Source: an uncultured Chitinophagaceae bacterium
GTDB lineage: Bacteria; Bacteroidota; Bacteroidia; Chitinophagales; Chitinophagaceae
NCBI GenBank assembly: GCA_903830285.1
Contig: CAIKTE010000016.1
Coordinates: 1-49,123, forward strand
Direction: 5' to 3'
DNA length: 49,123 nucleotides
Positions 32,006 to 49,123 of this stretch are shown here, one piece after another. The translations under genes were made by a program, and so were the position numbers. The notes under the pieces were generated by a model. The model searched no databases, was not told the DNA's origin, and saw nothing but the letters and a program-made list of their open reading frames with translations. How positions within the stretch are numbered: the stretch's first letter is position 1; each line of letters begins with the position of its first letter.

Positions 32006-33731
<1,726 letters not shown>

Positions 33732-43757: not shown

Positions 43758-44161
43758 CTTAAATCTCCTTTATTTGGCTTCCATTGCATAACATACTTGT
43801 ACATTCTTAGTACACAAAGCACTAAGACAAGCTGCAGTCTAACCTAAACAGTAAAATAAAAGGGATACAATACTTCAAAATTGTTAAGGCGGCAAAGGTA
43901 AGGATAGCATTTTAAATATAAAAGGAAAGTTTTTACCTCTTTTCTACCCAAAAACAGCGGTTTTAAGGCCAAAACCATTGCAAATACCCCTTTCTAATCC
44001 CTGCCTTTTATAAGGGATCCATTTCGGATTGGATGAATTAACAAATCCACAACAAACTGACATTCATTGCAAATGACGACTTCTATCAATCCCAAACATG
44101 ACAACTGTCAGTTTTTAGTTGATGGGTGGAAGATATTTTTGTTTTCAGAGATAATTATAGA
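43758..44161. other. Gene-free divergent region between rpoC and the unknown small gene
   Basis: The stretch holds the promoters of rpoC (minus) and the small gene (plus), plus the Shine-Dalgarno of the leader ORF at 43765-43770. The part at 43900-44100 is AT-rich with C-run and G-run patches and holds no gene that I can support. I see no trace of rpoB. Confidence 0.5.
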
Positions 44162-44563
44162 ATGCAGATCAAAATAGAAGACATATTAAAAATAAGTGAG
44201 ATTCAGGAACAATTCAGCAATATTTTCCCTTTTCTCAAGCTGGAATTTTTCAAGAAAAGCCCACAGGCAAGCCCTCTTGTGATCAAACAACCCCTCATTA
44301 ATATCACTAAAACTTTGGCTGAAAGCAGGACCGTTTTCAAGGCAAATGCAGAAATTAATATTACTCCTAATATGACAGTTAGTGAACTGGAAAAACAGTT
44401 CAATGAATGCTATGGATTATCTACACAAGTATTCCGTAAGTCCGGAAATATTTGGCTGGTAACCACTGTTACTGATAAATGGACCCTGGAAGAACAAAAC
44501 AAACAGGGCGAGATCATCACCAAACAAGTGCATGAAAGGAAATCAAAACTGGATAATCTGTAA
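44162..44563 (+). CDS. Small cytoplasmic protein of unknown function
   Basis: The protein has 133 residues from the ATG at 44162; a GTG at 44126 would add 12 residues that do not look coding. I do not recognise a family. There is no signal peptide or membrane segment. It has amphipathic helices, a stretch MTVSELEKQFNECYGLSTQV, then a beta-like GNIWLVTTVTDKWTLEEQN, and a Lys/Glu-rich end. It converges with the response regulator gene across an 8-bp gap. Confidence 0.65.
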   Translation: MQIKIEDILKISEIQEQFSNIFPFLKLEFFKKSPQASPLVIKQPLINITKTLAESRTVFKANAEINITPNMTVSELEKQFNECYGLSTQVFRKSGNIWLVTTVTDKWTLEEQNKQGEIITKQVHERKSKLDNL

Positions 44564-44571
44564 AGGCTCGT

Positions 44572-45633
44572 CTAATTGTGGATCTTACTCAGTTTCTCAT
44601 AATTAAGGATAGTGATCTTACTTACATTGATCTCGATCAGCTTTTCATCCTTAAAATCACTTAATGTTCTGATAGTACTTTCAGTGGCGATACCTGCAAG
44701 GTTTGCAAGATCTTCTCTCGATATACTGATCGTAAAATTCTTATCGGCTTCGTTTTTGTAACGGTCGTATAAGGTCACTAATGCATCTGCTACTTTTTTT
44801 CTGACAGAATTGTATGCAAATTTCAGCAACTGTTCTTCTTTATCACGAAGATTATCCGAGAGCATCTTGATGAATTTTCTCGACACTTCAGAATTCTTAT
44901 AGACCAAAGCATAAAAATCATCTTTCGGTATCAAACAAACTTCCACATCTTCCAACGCCACTGCCGAATCTGAATATTTACCTTCTTCCAGCAATGCCAG
45001 ATAGCCAAAGAAATCTCCTTCTTTATATAATCCTGTAATCAGTTCTTTTGCCTGATCATTCAGTTTACAGGTCTTCAGTTTACCCTTATTCAAAAAATAA
45101 ATCCCTTTCGGATAATTCTCTTCCTTATAGATCTCTTCTTTTTTACGGTACACGCGGATCTCACATTCTTCCGATAATTTTTTCAACGTATCAAAACCCC
45201 TCACTTCCTGAATAAAACTATTCAGTCCGTCTGCATTCTTCGCAAATTCTTTCTTGATCAGTTCTGCTTTTTTTAAACGGCTTTCTATCGCATTCAGTAA
45301 TTCAATATCATCAAAAGGCTTGGTGATATAATCATCGGCACCCATTTCCATTCCCTTTCTGAAATCTGTTCTTTCTGCTTTTGCAGTTAAAAAGATGAAT
45401 GGGATGCTTGCCGTTTTTTCATTCTTCGACAGCATATGCAATACGCCATAGCCATCGAGTACAGGCATCATGATATCGCAAATAATCAAGTCAGGTTCTT
45501 CATGCTCTGCCAGTTCAACACCTTCTTTTCCATTCATGGCAGCGATCACTTTATAATGCGCCAACTGTAAGATCTCTGCAGTATTCTCTCGCATTTCTGC
45601 ATTGTCTTCTATCAATAAAATTTTTTTGCTCAT
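44572..45633 (-). CDS. Response regulator with receiver, cyclic-nucleotide-binding and Crp HTH domains
   Basis: The 353-residue regulator starts with a receiver domain (about 1-120, phosphoacceptor Asp53 in LIICDIMMPVLDG, and DDYITKPFDD). A cyclic-nucleotide-binding-like beta-roll follows at about 155-265 (GIYFLNKGKLKTCKL, GDFFGYLALLEEGKYSDSAV), then a Crp-type winged helix at about 275-350 (ISISREDLANLAGIATESTI). Crp/Fnr proteins rarely carry a receiver. Its start overlaps the end of the PAS kinase gene by 4 bp, so that kinase is the obvious partner. Whether the beta-roll binds a ligand is not clear. Confidence 0.93.
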   Translation of the reverse strand: MSKKILLIEDNAEMRENTAEILQLAHYKVIAAMNGKEGVELAEHEEPDLIICDIMMPVLDGYGVLHMLSKNEKTASIPFIFLTAKAERTDFRKGMEMGADDYITKPFDDIELLNAIESRLKKAELIKKEFAKNADGLNSFIQEVRGFDTLKKLSEECEIRVYRKKEEIYKEENYPKGIYFLNKGKLKTCKLNDQAKELITGLYKEGDFFGYLALLEEGKYSDSAVALEDVEVCLIPKDDFYALVYKNSEVSRKFIKMLSDNLRDKEEQLLKFAYNSVRKKVADALVTLYDRYKNEADKNFTISISREDLANLAGIATESTIRTLSDFKDEKLIEINVSKITILNYEKLSKIHN

Positions 45634-46865
45634 TGCTCAATATAATTTGGAAGCTTTATGATAAATGTAGTTCCCTTTTCCGATTTACTTTCAAAAGTAA
45701 TCGTACCGTTCATCAATTCAACATATCTGGCCACAATATTTAAACCTAAACCCGTGCCCTGTATGTTAGCGGCATTATGTCCTCTGAAAAATCTTTGGAA
45801 CAAATGCTCCTGATCTTCTTCGGGAATACCGATCCCGCTGTCTTTTACTTTTAATTCAATAAAAGATTCGTTTACCATGGTAACCACTTCTATCGGCTTG
45901 GCAAGCGGTGAGAATTTAATGGCATTAGAAACCAGATTGAATAAAATATTCTTGAGTATTTTATGATCCAGATATACTTCCTGATTGCCCGAATGATAAT
46001 AATGAACCTGCTGTCCGGCTTTGGCCAGGGTTTGTAATTCCTGAATTGCCAAGGCCGTAAATTCTTTGATATTGAATAGATCCGGCACAGCAATGATCTT
46101 TCCTTCTTCGAGTTTGCTGAGCGACAACATATCATTTAAAATATCCGTTAAATGAGTGATAGATGTTTTAATACGGTTGATATGTTTTACCTGATTGTCT
46201 TTCTCTCCTATTTCTCCATATTTCGTTACCAGTGAAAGTGATGAAAGTATGGTTGCCAGCGGCGTTCTGAATTCATGCGATGCCATCGACACAAAACGCG
46301 TTTTCAATTCGTTCAATTCCTTCTCCTTTTCCAAAGCAATACTTAACTCTTCTCGCGAATTTTCCAATTCATGTAATGCTTCTTCCAGAATCATGGTCCT
46401 GTCTTTCACACGCTTATCCAGCTCATTGGCCAATTGCTGTAATTCTTCTTTCTGTGTTTTAAGGATCTCTTCACTTTTCTTTCTCACCGTAATATCAATG
46501 ATAAATGCAATGACAAACTTTCCATCGTCATTACTGAAGGGACTTAAACTTATTTCAACAGGGATCTCCCCACCATCTTTTTTCTTTCCAAACAGATCCA
46601 TGCCGATACCCATAGAACGCGGATGCGGGCTCTTGGCATATTTTTCACGATGATGAGAATGATTACTGAATCTTTTAGGGATCAGGGTCTCAATAGGCTT
46701 GCCTATTAATTCGCCCTCACGGTAGCCGAAAAGTTTTTCGCAGGAAGGATTAGACAGGATGATATGCCCTGCATCATCAATAACCACGATGCCTTCACTT
46801 GCATACTCAAATAATGCACTGAACTTTTCCTCGGATGATAAAAATGGCGTTGTACTCACTTTCAT
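45630..46865 (-). CDS. PAS-domain sensor histidine kinase
   Basis: This 411-residue kinase has no membrane segment. It has a PAS/PAC domain (about 10-130: EYASEGIVVIDDAGHIILSN), a coiled-coil linker (about 130-185), the H-box (RFVSMASHEFRTPLATILSS), and the N, G1 and G2 boxes (LVSNAIKFSPLAKP, VKDSGIGIPEEDQEHLF, GTGLGLNIVARYVEL). It is probably soluble and senses an internal or redox signal through the PAS domain. The 4-bp overlap with the receiver-Crp gene pairs the two. Confidence 0.94.
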   Translation of the reverse strand: MKVSTTPFLSSEEKFSALFEYASEGIVVIDDAGHIILSNPSCEKLFGYREGELIGKPIETLIPKRFSNHSHHREKYAKSPHPRSMGIGMDLFGKKKDGGEIPVEISLSPFSNDDGKFVIAFIIDITVRKKSEEILKTQKEELQQLANELDKRVKDRTMILEEALHELENSREELSIALEKEKELNELKTRFVSMASHEFRTPLATILSSLSLVTKYGEIGEKDNQVKHINRIKTSITHLTDILNDMLSLSKLEEGKIIAVPDLFNIKEFTALAIQELQTLAKAGQQVHYYHSGNQEVYLDHKILKNILFNLVSNAIKFSPLAKPIEVVTMVNESFIELKVKDSGIGIPEEDQEHLFQRFFRGHNAANIQGTGLGLNIVARYVELMNGTITFESKSEKGTTFIIKLPNYIEQ

Positions 46866-46947: not shown

Positions 46948-48756
46948 CTAAGCTTCTACCAATAACAGGCTTTCCATAATGATGTTCAGCTCATTTTCGA
47001 TGGTTACAAGATTCTCTAAAAATCCACCATCATTCGGTAAAGATTTATTTTCCAGCATTTGACGGTAATATTGAATACCATCCATAATACTTGTATAAAA
47101 ACCACGCAGATATTTTAATTTTTTAGGGTCAGTAGTTCCTTCATTTTCTTCCACCTGTTCCTTTAAATAATTCACATATAATTCGAGTTCTTTCTGGAAC
47201 ATGTTAGGACGATATCCTTCCTTCAACACATTGCCTCTTCCGTAAATATGATCCACCATTTTCTTTAAGGAAACCACTTCTGAAAAATAGGCAATATTCG
47301 GACCCGGACAAATGGTAACACCAGTTGCACTTTTTAATAAAGGCTTGGTGATATTGCAGGAGGTAGCCGTATTGCTTAAACCTAAACAAAGACATTCTTT
47401 ATCTAAGATCAACTTCTTTTGTTTTGCTAATTCTTCAGCACTGAGATTTTGAGATTCCAAAAGATCCAGTTTTAGTTTCTGGTATTTGGTAGACGCGGTA
47501 CAAATAGGCTGATCGGTAAATTCTATATTGCTTTCGAGGAACTTTTCGGGGCAAGGACTTCCGGGTAATCCCATATCGATACGATGGAATTTTTCTTCTT
47601 CACCAGAGGTCTTTTTCAGGTAATTGAAACGGATCCCTAAAGGAGAATTCTTACTTAAGATAATATCTTCTTCTTTAGAATCGCATAAACGCTGTAATGT
47701 ATGTCCGTCAACATTTGTAGCTTCCGGAACCAATAAGAAAGGGCTTCCCCAACCGGTACCGTCCACTCCGTAAAAATCTTTCAGGAACTGATCTTCTTTT
47801 GCATTGCCGATACCACCTTGAACGGTGATCCTTGTATGCGGAATTGCTGTAGGGACTTCTCTTCCTTTTTCAGCCAGTGATTTGGTATACAAACCAAATA
47901 ATTCGGCCAGCATCTCTTCTTTCTTCTGTTTGAATTCTTCGAGTATCGGACCTAATAAATAACCGTCTGTTGCAAAAGCATGACCGCCACAATTTAATCC
48001 CGATTCGATCCTGAATTCAGAAACCCACAAACCTTTCTTGGCTAAGAATTTTCCCTGTATCAAGGAAGAACGATAATCGCTTACTTTAATGATAATCCTT
48101 TTTACAAAGCTTCCGTCTTTTACAGTTCTGAACTGTTCGAAATTATCGAGGTAATTATATAACCGCGGATTCATTCCCGCAGAAAATACTACTGATGAAT
48201 TGGTGAGATCACTGTTTACATAACCACGCAAAGCAGTTAATGCATCAGAACCTTCAACGATCATATTGCCATCCTTATCCAAACGGTTGTTGTCTAATTT
48301 TGTCATGATGTTTACATCAATACAACCGGGCTTGATCTCAGCACGAAGCTTGTCCTGCATGGTTGCCTTTTGTACAGAATCAGTCATTTCCAGCATGGCC
48401 AGATATAAATGTTTCAGCTTACTGTCTTCAGGCAGCATCTCAAAATATTTCACGATCTCAGATCCAGTTTCAAAAGCTTTTGTTTTAAGCTGATCGAATT
48501 TAGAATGCACGATCCTGTTTACCAGATTGAGATAATCGGTTACACGTTTAGCACGATGATCCAGATCAATTAATGGTATAGGAATATATAATTCGTTCAA
48601 TTGATTATAGTAATACTCACGCATCCTTTCCAGTAATGTATCCTCAATGATCGAGATCACTGAAGAAATACCGTAGGGCGCCACTTTAACCGGTGTATCC
48701 ACTGTAAATGCAAGGCCCATTACAGGAATATGAAATGTGTGATCAGAATATGCCAT
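46948..48756 (-). CDS. Large cysteine-rich protein of unknown function
   Basis: The protein has 602 residues from the ATG at 48756; a TTG at 48804 would add 16 residues. I do not recognise a named family. There is no signal peptide or membrane helix. The middle holds glycine-rich motifs that look like cofactor or phosphate loops: ESGLNCGGHAFATDGYL (Cys256), then ITVQGGIGNAKEDQFL and VDGTGWGSPFLLVPEATNVD. Six Cys cluster at about 402, 419, 455, 457, 467 and 483, including ECLCLGL and TICPGPN, as expected for a metal or Fe-S site. The C-terminal 100 residues are helical. It precedes the PAS kinase gene by 82 bp on the same strand and may share its transcript. A redox enzyme with a TIM-barrel part is a guess. 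Confidence 0.75.
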   Translation of the reverse strand: MAYSDHTFHIPVMGLAFTVDTPVKVAPYGISSVISIIEDTLLERMREYYYNQLNELYIPIPLIDLDHRAKRVTDYLNLVNRIVHSKFDQLKTKAFETGSEIVKYFEMLPEDSKLKHLYLAMLEMTDSVQKATMQDKLRAEIKPGCIDVNIMTKLDNNRLDKDGNMIVEGSDALTALRGYVNSDLTNSSVVFSAGMNPRLYNYLDNFEQFRTVKDGSFVKRIIIKVSDYRSSLIQGKFLAKKGLWVSEFRIESGLNCGGHAFATDGYLLGPILEEFKQKKEEMLAELFGLYTKSLAEKGREVPTAIPHTRITVQGGIGNAKEDQFLKDFYGVDGTGWGSPFLLVPEATNVDGHTLQRLCDSKEEDIILSKNSPLGIRFNYLKKTSGEEEKFHRIDMGLPGSPCPEKFLESNIEFTDQPICTASTKYQKLKLDLLESQNLSAEELAKQKKLILDKECLCLGLSNTATSCNITKPLLKSATGVTICPGPNIAYFSEVVSLKKMVDHIYGRGNVLKEGYRPNMFQKELELYVNYLKEQVEENEGTTDPKKLKYLRGFYTSIMDGIQYYRQMLENKSLPNDGGFLENLVTIENELNIIMESLLLVEA

Positions 48757-49123
48757 AAGATTGCTATTGCTGAGTTTTATAAAGAATAAATATCTAGAGT
48801 GCAAGATAACCTTTTAAATATAAATAGGAAACCTATAAAATTTTGATTATTACGATTTAGGAAGTTTCCTTTCAGAATTGTGCTGATTTAACATTTAAAC
48901 AGGATAATTCTTGTCATCAACAACTTGAATATTAATGCAAAGGATATAAATATTTGAGATAGGGTTGCCAACCTTTAGAAGGTTGGCAACCCTTTAATCT
49001 AATACTGCTTGTCTCCATGTTGTTATCTCATTCGTATCTTTTTGCTGGTTTCTTCGAGCGTTCTTCGAGAGCACTGCAATAAAAAAGCAATAAAGTAGCA
49101 GGAGATCACGAAGGAATTACGAA
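48757..49123. other. Gene-free right edge with palindromic repeats
   Basis: No gene is seen. The stretch holds the hairpin at 48961-48993 and, near the window end, TTCGAGCGTTCTTCGAGAGCACTG (49053-49076 region). This shares the TTCGAGAGC string with the element at 39194-39352, so it may be the start of another dispersed repeat cut by the window edge. Confidence 0.5.
48961..48993. repeat. Second copy of the GGTTGCCAAC palindrome
   Basis: AGGGTTGCCAACCTT (48961-48975) and AAGGTTGGCAACCCT (48979-48993) form a perfect 15-bp stem with a 3-nt loop. The core matches the terminator hairpin at 33777-33811. It is not directly behind a gene end within the window, so it looks more like a dispersed palindrome than a dedicated terminator. 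Confidence 0.75.

Follow-up and report, generated by a model that had tools for sequence, protein, structure and literature searches.

The protein P0001, of 602 residues, is the product of a real gene on the minus strand (46948..48756) of the window, by which the whole analysed stretch of 49,123 nucleotides from an uncultured Chitinophagaceae bacterium is meant. P0001 is proposed to be a soluble oxidoreductase with a TIM barrel for FMN, of the nitronate monooxygenase (NMO)/FabK/PfaD kind, in which H259 would act as the active-site base and C256 would lie beside the flavin. Located after the barrel, C402, C419, C455, C457 and C483 would hold a probable iron-sulfur cluster, in a region that would correspond in position to the NAD(P)H domain of FabK and to the [4Fe-4S] domain of FabX, a decanoyl-ACP dehydrogenase/isomerase. 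As a whole, the reading of P0001 as an FMN/Fe-S acyl-thioester oxidoreductase of oxygen-limited, N-oxide-respiring cells is put forward as a serious but tentative proposal. Conservation and genomic context are shown directly by the data, whereas FMN, Fe-S cluster and substrate are inferred from them. Its weakest link is the acyl-thioester substrate, which is assigned by analogy and has to be regarded as doubtful.

In the proposed reaction, electrons would move between FMN and the cluster during the dehydrogenation or reduction of an acyl thioester, and the cluster would store these electrons or pass them on. A step which normally uses O2, most plausibly fatty-acid desaturation, might in this way go on without O2, like the step of NGO1024 in the gonococcus, the FabX homologue also called UfaA. 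If this is true, the replaced O2-dependent step would explain the synthesis of membrane lipids, or of another product, in the absence of oxygen. That facultative denitrifying Bacteroidota possess a separate third route to cis double bonds without oxygen, formed by an FMN/Fe-S acyl-thioester dehydrogenase-isomerase with its own cysteine site and extra domains and switched on with N2O respiration, is conceivable but unlikely.

The gene and its conserved residues

The reading frame starts with an ATG at 48756 and ends with the stop codon at 46948. An alternative TTG start would result in a longer frame of 618 residues; comparison with the homologues agreed with the ATG, which is therefore preferred. 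In an even sample of 296 genomes across the phylum Bacteroidota, the P0001 family was identified in 112 genomes and in 67 of 140 genera, and a profile search identified it in 142 of 395 Bacteroidota genomes. No internal stop codon was present in the main copy of any of the 112 carriers, one of which (G290) is a partial match only. Outside the window genus, the identity of the homologues amounts to 44-60%. The gene is almost always present in one copy per genome; one large family lacks it altogether in its 61 labelled genomes. These distribution counts refer to Bacteroidota only. A scan of the genome collection with short peptide patterns resulted in seven close loci; a tblastn search of plasmids and phages for P0001 gave no match, and no relatives were found in the viral contigs searched. 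One genome (G095) contains a second copy broken by in-frame TGA codons, and another (G152) contains two intact copies. By eye, a near-perfect inverted repeat, agggttgccaacc...ggttggcaaccct, was noted at 48961-48993, in the intergenic stretch that precedes the P0001 gene.

Conservation was determined on two sets of homologues. In the first, 52 matches were reduced to 48 longer than 550 amino acids and then to 45 distinct sequences; the second consists of 88 distinct sequences over 540 amino acids, from which fragments were excluded (for example, those of L006, L007, L045 and L053). Six cysteines, C256, C402, C419, C455, C457 and C483, are invariant in 45/45 and 88/88 sequences, so that the poor conservation which would have spoken against a cysteine-based site was not found. 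The preliminary description of this DNA, made from the sequence alone, had drawn a cluster of six cysteines at about 402-483 including a CxC. Such cysteines are indeed present at 402, 419, 455, 457, 467 and 483, with the CLC at 455-457. Five of them are invariant, but C467 does not belong to the conserved set (13% of the 45 and 7% of the 88 homologues) and its place is taken by C256, which is located outside the cluster within the glycine-rich NCGGH motif. C145 and C358, like C467, are not invariant among the 88 homologues. Further residues invariant in 88/88 include E251, N255 and H259, each glycine of NCGGH and QGGIG, and K224, D227 and R229.

The glycine-rich loops quoted in the same description (GLNCGGHAF, VQGGIGNAKE and GTGWGSPFL) are all found in P0001, and they belong to a series of motifs with the order PVMG, SAGMNP, ESGLNCGGH, QGGIG and GWGSPFLLVPE. 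The definitions of motifs I-III of NMO and enoyl reductase (ER) enzymes used here were taken from the available part of PMC13311796. Candidate motif I, HTFHIPVMG (residues 6-14; 48715..48741, minus strand like all features of P0001), was matched to the APMxG of these enzymes by reading and not from an alignment; its G14 is invariant in 88/88. Candidate motif II, SVVFSAGMNP (residues 188-197; 48166..48195), contains the invariant S192, A193 and G194 (88/88) and was paired by hhalign with the 'SAGNP' of NMO/FabK. Candidate motif III (xEAGGH) is ESGLNCGGH (residues 251-259; 47980..48006), in which all positions except L254 are invariant in 88/88; it contains C256 and the candidate catalytic H259. 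The candidate flavin-phosphate loop, VQGGIG (residues 312-317; 47806..47823), with Q313, G314, G315 and G317 invariant in 88/88, was aligned with the AGGI loop of NMO. On the basis of conservation and hhalign, GWGSPFLLVPE (residues 335-345; 47722..47754) was assigned as the end-of-barrel motif, corresponding to GSxFxxxxEA of NMO/FabK. The cysteine region, a candidate Fe-S site, comprises residues 402-487 (47296..47553) with the five invariant cysteines and an equally invariant PGPN (88/88), part of a CPGPN motif. It is followed by a predicted helical bundle (residues 510-602; 46951..47229), which is poorly conserved.

Probable relation to flavin-dependent barrel enzymes

Searches with the single P0001 sequence gave nothing usable in Pfam and PHROGs, where only rows at E 0.018 or worse were obtained, and no usable match in NCBIfam, PADLOC or the PDB sequences. 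When a family profile of 38 rows was used against the PDB sequences, only chance-like rows resulted (E 0.038 or worse), and NCBIfam contained no relevant family for the 38 members up to E 10. The nitronate monooxygenase family PF03060 did not match P0001 up to E 1 and is absent among the 25 listed of the 37 Pfam families found for the 38 members. TIGR02814, the PfaD family, matched none of the 38 members up to E 10; it was also without a match in the window genome, and PfaD exceeded its cut-off in 0 of 148 genomes. A hypothetical-protein model, NF001645, weakly matches 11 of the 38 members in one alignment (A1), with a best E of 6.7e-5.

For a comparison of profiles by hhalign, 39 NMO/FabK sequences made up the second profile. 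The P0001 family was matched to it along 162 columns (the alignment as printed shows 172), at a score of 26.3 and P 0.0076. SAGxNP, GGH, QGGIG and GSPFLxxPEA were collinear in both profiles; ESGLNCGGH was paired with the EAGGH motif and TGWGSPFLLVPEAT with the barrel-end motif of NMO/FabK. In this alignment H259, invariant in 88/88, falls on the histidine of the NMO/FabK GGH motif. The reversed-profile control reached a score of 15.0. However, RpoC, which was among the 23 decoy families, reached 28.3 (P 0.011) and so exceeded NMO/FabK, and in the global mode nothing useful was obtained (8 columns, score 3.5). For these two reasons the sequence evidence for a relation to NMO/FabK is supportive, not conclusive.

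Only 8 and 7 close sequences, respectively, went into two AlphaFold2 models of P0001, which are not independent of each other and have a mean pLDDT of 49.5 and 52.2. In the better modelled parts (about residues 110-140, 200-250 and 270-310) strands and helices alternate as in a TIM barrel. The first strand is followed by a long predicted helical segment, and the tail is also predicted to be helical. The pLDDT is below 50 for residues 252-267, which contain the GGH motif of ESGLNCGGH (in both models), for the flavin-loop region and for most of the cysteine region, in which the CPGPN motif lies. With both models, the top seven rows of Foldseek, representing four PDB entries, were all PfaD or trans-acting enoyl reductases. 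For the first model these rows have E values of 3.8e-3 to 1.6e-2, with the next row at 4.5e-2; for the second, they have E values of 4.7e-4 to 3.4e-3, three of them below 0.001, with the next row at 1.4e-2. These rows have low TM-scores, 0.15-0.25, and an rmsd of 11-13. Using VIA-align on the first model, MlnA-ER was superimposed with Z 8.4 (rmsd 4.0 A, 183 aligned residues), PfaD with Z 8.2 (rmsd 4.2, 190 aligned) and FabX with Z 7.8 (rmsd 4.9, 191 aligned); the same reductases, FabX, FabK and NMO span Z 7-8, and unrelated barrels follow directly behind, namely CLYBL (Z 7.8) and transaldolase (Z 7.7). With the second model, unrelated barrels tie with or exceed the NMO/PfaD/FabX enzymes by Z.

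The structure prediction and fold search called for by the preliminary description thus placed PfaD and the trans-acting enoyl reductases on top with both models, but did so with models of low confidence and at low TM-scores. P0001 is very probably an NMO/PfaD-like barrel, and when the evidence from fold and motifs is taken together, an FMN barrel of the NMO/FabK/PfaD superfamily is very likely; this assignment of the barrel class is supported, yet unproven. The earlier statement that the protein has no place in a known family holds for the curated profiles, none of which matches clearly, but not for fold and motif order, which set it beside NMO, FabK, PfaD and FabX. The P0001 family is undescribed in the curated libraries searched and is probably built on a known scaffold. 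The idea that P0001 is a redox enzyme, with loops for cofactors and perhaps a metal cluster, was strengthened by the strict conservation of the cysteines and by the barrel and motif evidence, the cofactors themselves being predicted.

Genomic context and a probable role at low oxygen

The co-occurrence of the P0001 gene with the markers nosZ, ric and ccoN was determined from matches over the cut-off only; family labels covered 276 of the 296 genomes in the tests for ric and ccoN. Some families were left out of the within-family test for nosZ, among them the largest, whose 61 genomes include no carrier; such families cannot inform this test. nosZ was identified in 56 of 112 carriers of the P0001 family and in 43 of 184 non-carriers, with a within-family odds ratio of 3.0 (p 0.003). 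For ric, which codes for an Fe-S repair protein, the numbers are 74/112 and 33/184 (odds ratio 5.8, p 1.2e-5), and 38 of the 112 carriers are without ric over the cut-off. ccoN of the cbb3 oxidase is present in 83/112 carriers and 61/184 non-carriers (odds ratio 2.5, p 0.03). Between ric and ccoN no such association was present (odds ratio 0.93).

In part of the genomes, nosZ or ric also lies close to the P0001 gene. nosZ is located within 13 kb of the P0001 gene in 16 of the 56 genomes containing both, on the same strand in 15 cases, while about 0.56 cases within 20 kb would be expected by chance for 4-Mb genomes. These 16 genomes belong to four families, with 11 of them in one. ric is located within 250 bp in 13 of the 74 genomes with both, on the same strand in 12, and all 13 are from one family. 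The neighbouring cases are not independent of each other, since all of those for ric and 11 of the 16 for nosZ come from one family. In the window genome, nosZ and a ric-like gene just under the cut-off are present on one contig, and the cbb3 genes are located elsewhere.

Individual loci are consistent with this picture. In L179, the P0001-family gene was found downstream of a profile-checked nosZ-nosD-ABC operon; in L180 it follows, by eye, a similar operon, and in L181 it lies between the nos and the cbb3 oxidase genes. A compact anaerobic island in L184 contains the P0001-family gene together with those for RIC, NrdD, NrdG, Rrf2, NadA, NadB and a CRP-like regulator, the match of the latter being below the equivalog cut-offs. 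Among the 64 loci compared, no neighbour family was present in more than 5, and a conserved phylum-wide operon, with the largest neighbour cluster reaching at most 5/64 loci, was therefore rejected. No recurrent fatty-acid gene was seen beside the P0001-family gene among the neighbours looked at, and the acyl-thioester substrate consequently rests on analogy.

Three further features of these surroundings were noted. The island of L184 likely contains, judged by eye, also a truncated haemoglobin. nadA and/or nadB genes lie beside or near the P0001-family gene in L158, L179, L180, L184 and L085, confirmed by profile in L184 and assigned by eye in the others. The window codes for a beta-eliminating lyase of the tryptophanase/tyrosine phenol-lyase type at 32343-33731 on the plus strand, and genes of the same cluster are also found near the P0001-family gene in L085, L097, L143 and L160.

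A palindrome, TGAYN4RTCA, presumably CRP/FNR-like, precedes 15 of 64 P0001-family genes and 33 of 602 other genes of the same loci at a distance of up to 200 nt (p 1e-5); for this count, upstream regions had to measure at least 200 nt and the other genes to code for at least 100 amino acids. This palindrome had been selected from the many that were scanned in 45 upstream regions, with which 22 of the 64 loci overlap and 42 do not. In the overlapping loci it was found at 5/22 family genes and 14/257 others (p 0.011), and in the 42 loci outside the discovery scan at 10/42 and 19/345 (p 3e-4). Under a stricter control, using genes with at least 100 nt of free upstream sequence, the numbers were 12/53 and 29/328 (p 0.0066). 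Three scrambled palindromes showed no difference between family and control genes. The palindrome is not present in the 350 nt upstream of the window P0001 gene, nor upstream of ric in four ric-adjacent loci.

A role of the P0001 family in low-oxygen or N-oxide metabolism is considered highly likely, and P0001 would belong to the gene set for oxygen limitation and N-oxide respiration of facultative Bacteroidota. The context of nos, ric and cbb3 genes, with an anaerobic ribonucleotide reductase in one locus, points to life at low oxygen, and the same gene set is connected to the consumption of N2O, a greenhouse gas.

Alternative readings and comparison with known enzymes

Two alternatives are derived from the neighbours of the gene. 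Downstream of the P0001 gene, after a gap of 82 bases and in the same direction, follow the genes for a PAS sensor histidine kinase (45630..46865, minus strand) and for a response regulator with receiver, cNMP-binding and Crp-HTH parts (44572..45633, minus strand), which overlaps the kinase gene. The preliminary description had suggested P0001 as the sensor partner or target of this pair. The arrangement is kept in the window genus and Hydrotalea, but among the loci compared the pair adjoins the P0001-family gene just in the window, L002, L003 and L004 (4/64), all of this one clade, while the gene itself occurs in 112 of 296 genomes of the phylum. Neither a general role of this kind nor the expected co-occurrence was thus borne out, and it is most improbable that P0001 serves this pair specifically, as its sensor partner or as a target of its regulation. 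Within this clade the three genes may be cotranscribed, and since they are co-directional, regulation of the P0001 gene by the receiver-Crp protein is possible there. By eye, different PAS-like proteins were identified next to the P0001-family gene in L136 and L150. A reading frame at 44126-44563 (plus strand; 133-145 residues) beside the receiver-Crp gene is kept in the four loci and has no Pfam match. The position close to nosZ (16/56 genomes with both, 15 of them on the same strand, in four families) and downstream of the nos operon in L179 might be explained if P0001 were dedicated to nitrous oxide reductase, either in its maturation or in supplying it with electrons. However, 56 of the 112 carriers are without nosZ over the cut-off and 43 genomes contain nosZ without the P0001 gene. 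A NosZ factor is very unlikely on these counts, and this candidate was rejected because half of the carriers lack nosZ.

The other two alternatives concern the chemistry of the protein. Five invariant cysteines outside the barrel, with a CxC, are compatible with the binding of zinc, and zinc ligands or disulfides would make P0001 a flavoenzyme without an Fe-S cluster, or a structural or regulatory protein. However, the invariant GGH and QGG motifs look catalytic, the position of the cysteines matches that of the FabX cluster domain, and ric, one of the neighbours, serves in Fe-S repair; the zinc or disulfide reading is accordingly unlikely. The placement of the five cysteines after the barrel, as in the FabX cluster domain though with another spacing, together with the CPGPN motif, suggests an Fe-S cluster, which is considered probable in comparison to zinc or structural cysteines. 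More difficult to separate from the proposed function is an enzyme of the same class acting on a substrate other than an acyl thioester, for example, an NADH:quinone reductase or another small-molecule reductase or dehydrogenase involved in low-oxygen redox or nitrosative stress. Such an enzyme would fit the neighbouring ric and Rrf2 genes, the cytochrome c peroxidase-like and haemoglobin-like neighbours seen by eye, and the presence of PA1024, an NADH:quinone reductase of the superfamily, among the structural rows (6e2a, Z 7.3). In contrast, the best Foldseek rows, PfaD and the trans-acting enoyl reductases, are acyl-thioester enzymes, and with no neighbour family in more than 5/64 loci there is also no recurrent electron carrier. 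This alternative is itself only a possibility; a quinone or redox reductase that uses a different substrate comes close in likelihood to the acyl-thioester reading.

For the proposed acyl-thioester oxidoreductase, the comparison with known systems draws on the accessible parts of PMC8626469, PMC13311796, PMC3032703 and PMC11300592. FabK and NMO (PF03060) resemble P0001 in the collinear motifs of the hhalign alignment and differ in that no profile match was obtained. The window genome encodes a separate, clear FabK (L176; match to 4iql with E 9e-123), and another barrel reading frame of this genome resembles, by eye, GMP reductase. PfaD and the trans-acting enoyl reductases are similar to P0001 as the best Foldseek rows with both models; in contrast, they gave no profile match, and no polyketide or PUFA synthase was found among the P0001 neighbours looked at. 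PfaD is not known to carry an Fe-S cluster. An SGGH-type motif III is described for these reductases (PMC13311796, in excerpt).

FabX of Helicobacter pylori combines an NMO fold with a [4Fe-4S] cluster, the ligands of which, C300, C304, C308 and C320, are located after the barrel, at the position of the NAD(P)H domain in FabK (PMC8626469, in excerpt). Compared with this arrangement, the P0001 family has a spacing of C-x16-C-x35-CxC-x25-C, and [4Fe-4S] ligands spaced as in FabX are not present in it. FabX-type cysteine signatures were also not found in the loci fetched, few of which were candidates. P0001 further differs from FabX and NGO1024 in its length (602 residues versus about 363-372), in the extra cysteine of the GGH motif, in the helical segment after the first strand and the helical tail, and in the lack of a sequence match to PDB chains. 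According to the same excerpts of PMC8626469, FabX requires O2 as acceptor, and it is therefore no model for an oxygen-free step. FabX and NGO1024 have an FMN-type barrel with an active-site histidine, a cysteine domain after the barrel and a connection with low oxygen, and the corresponding features are predicted for the P0001 family. In the gonococcus, npd as well as dnrN is described as anaerobically induced (PMC3032703, in excerpt), and this co-induction resembles the position of the Fe-S repair gene ric directly adjoining the P0001 gene in one family.
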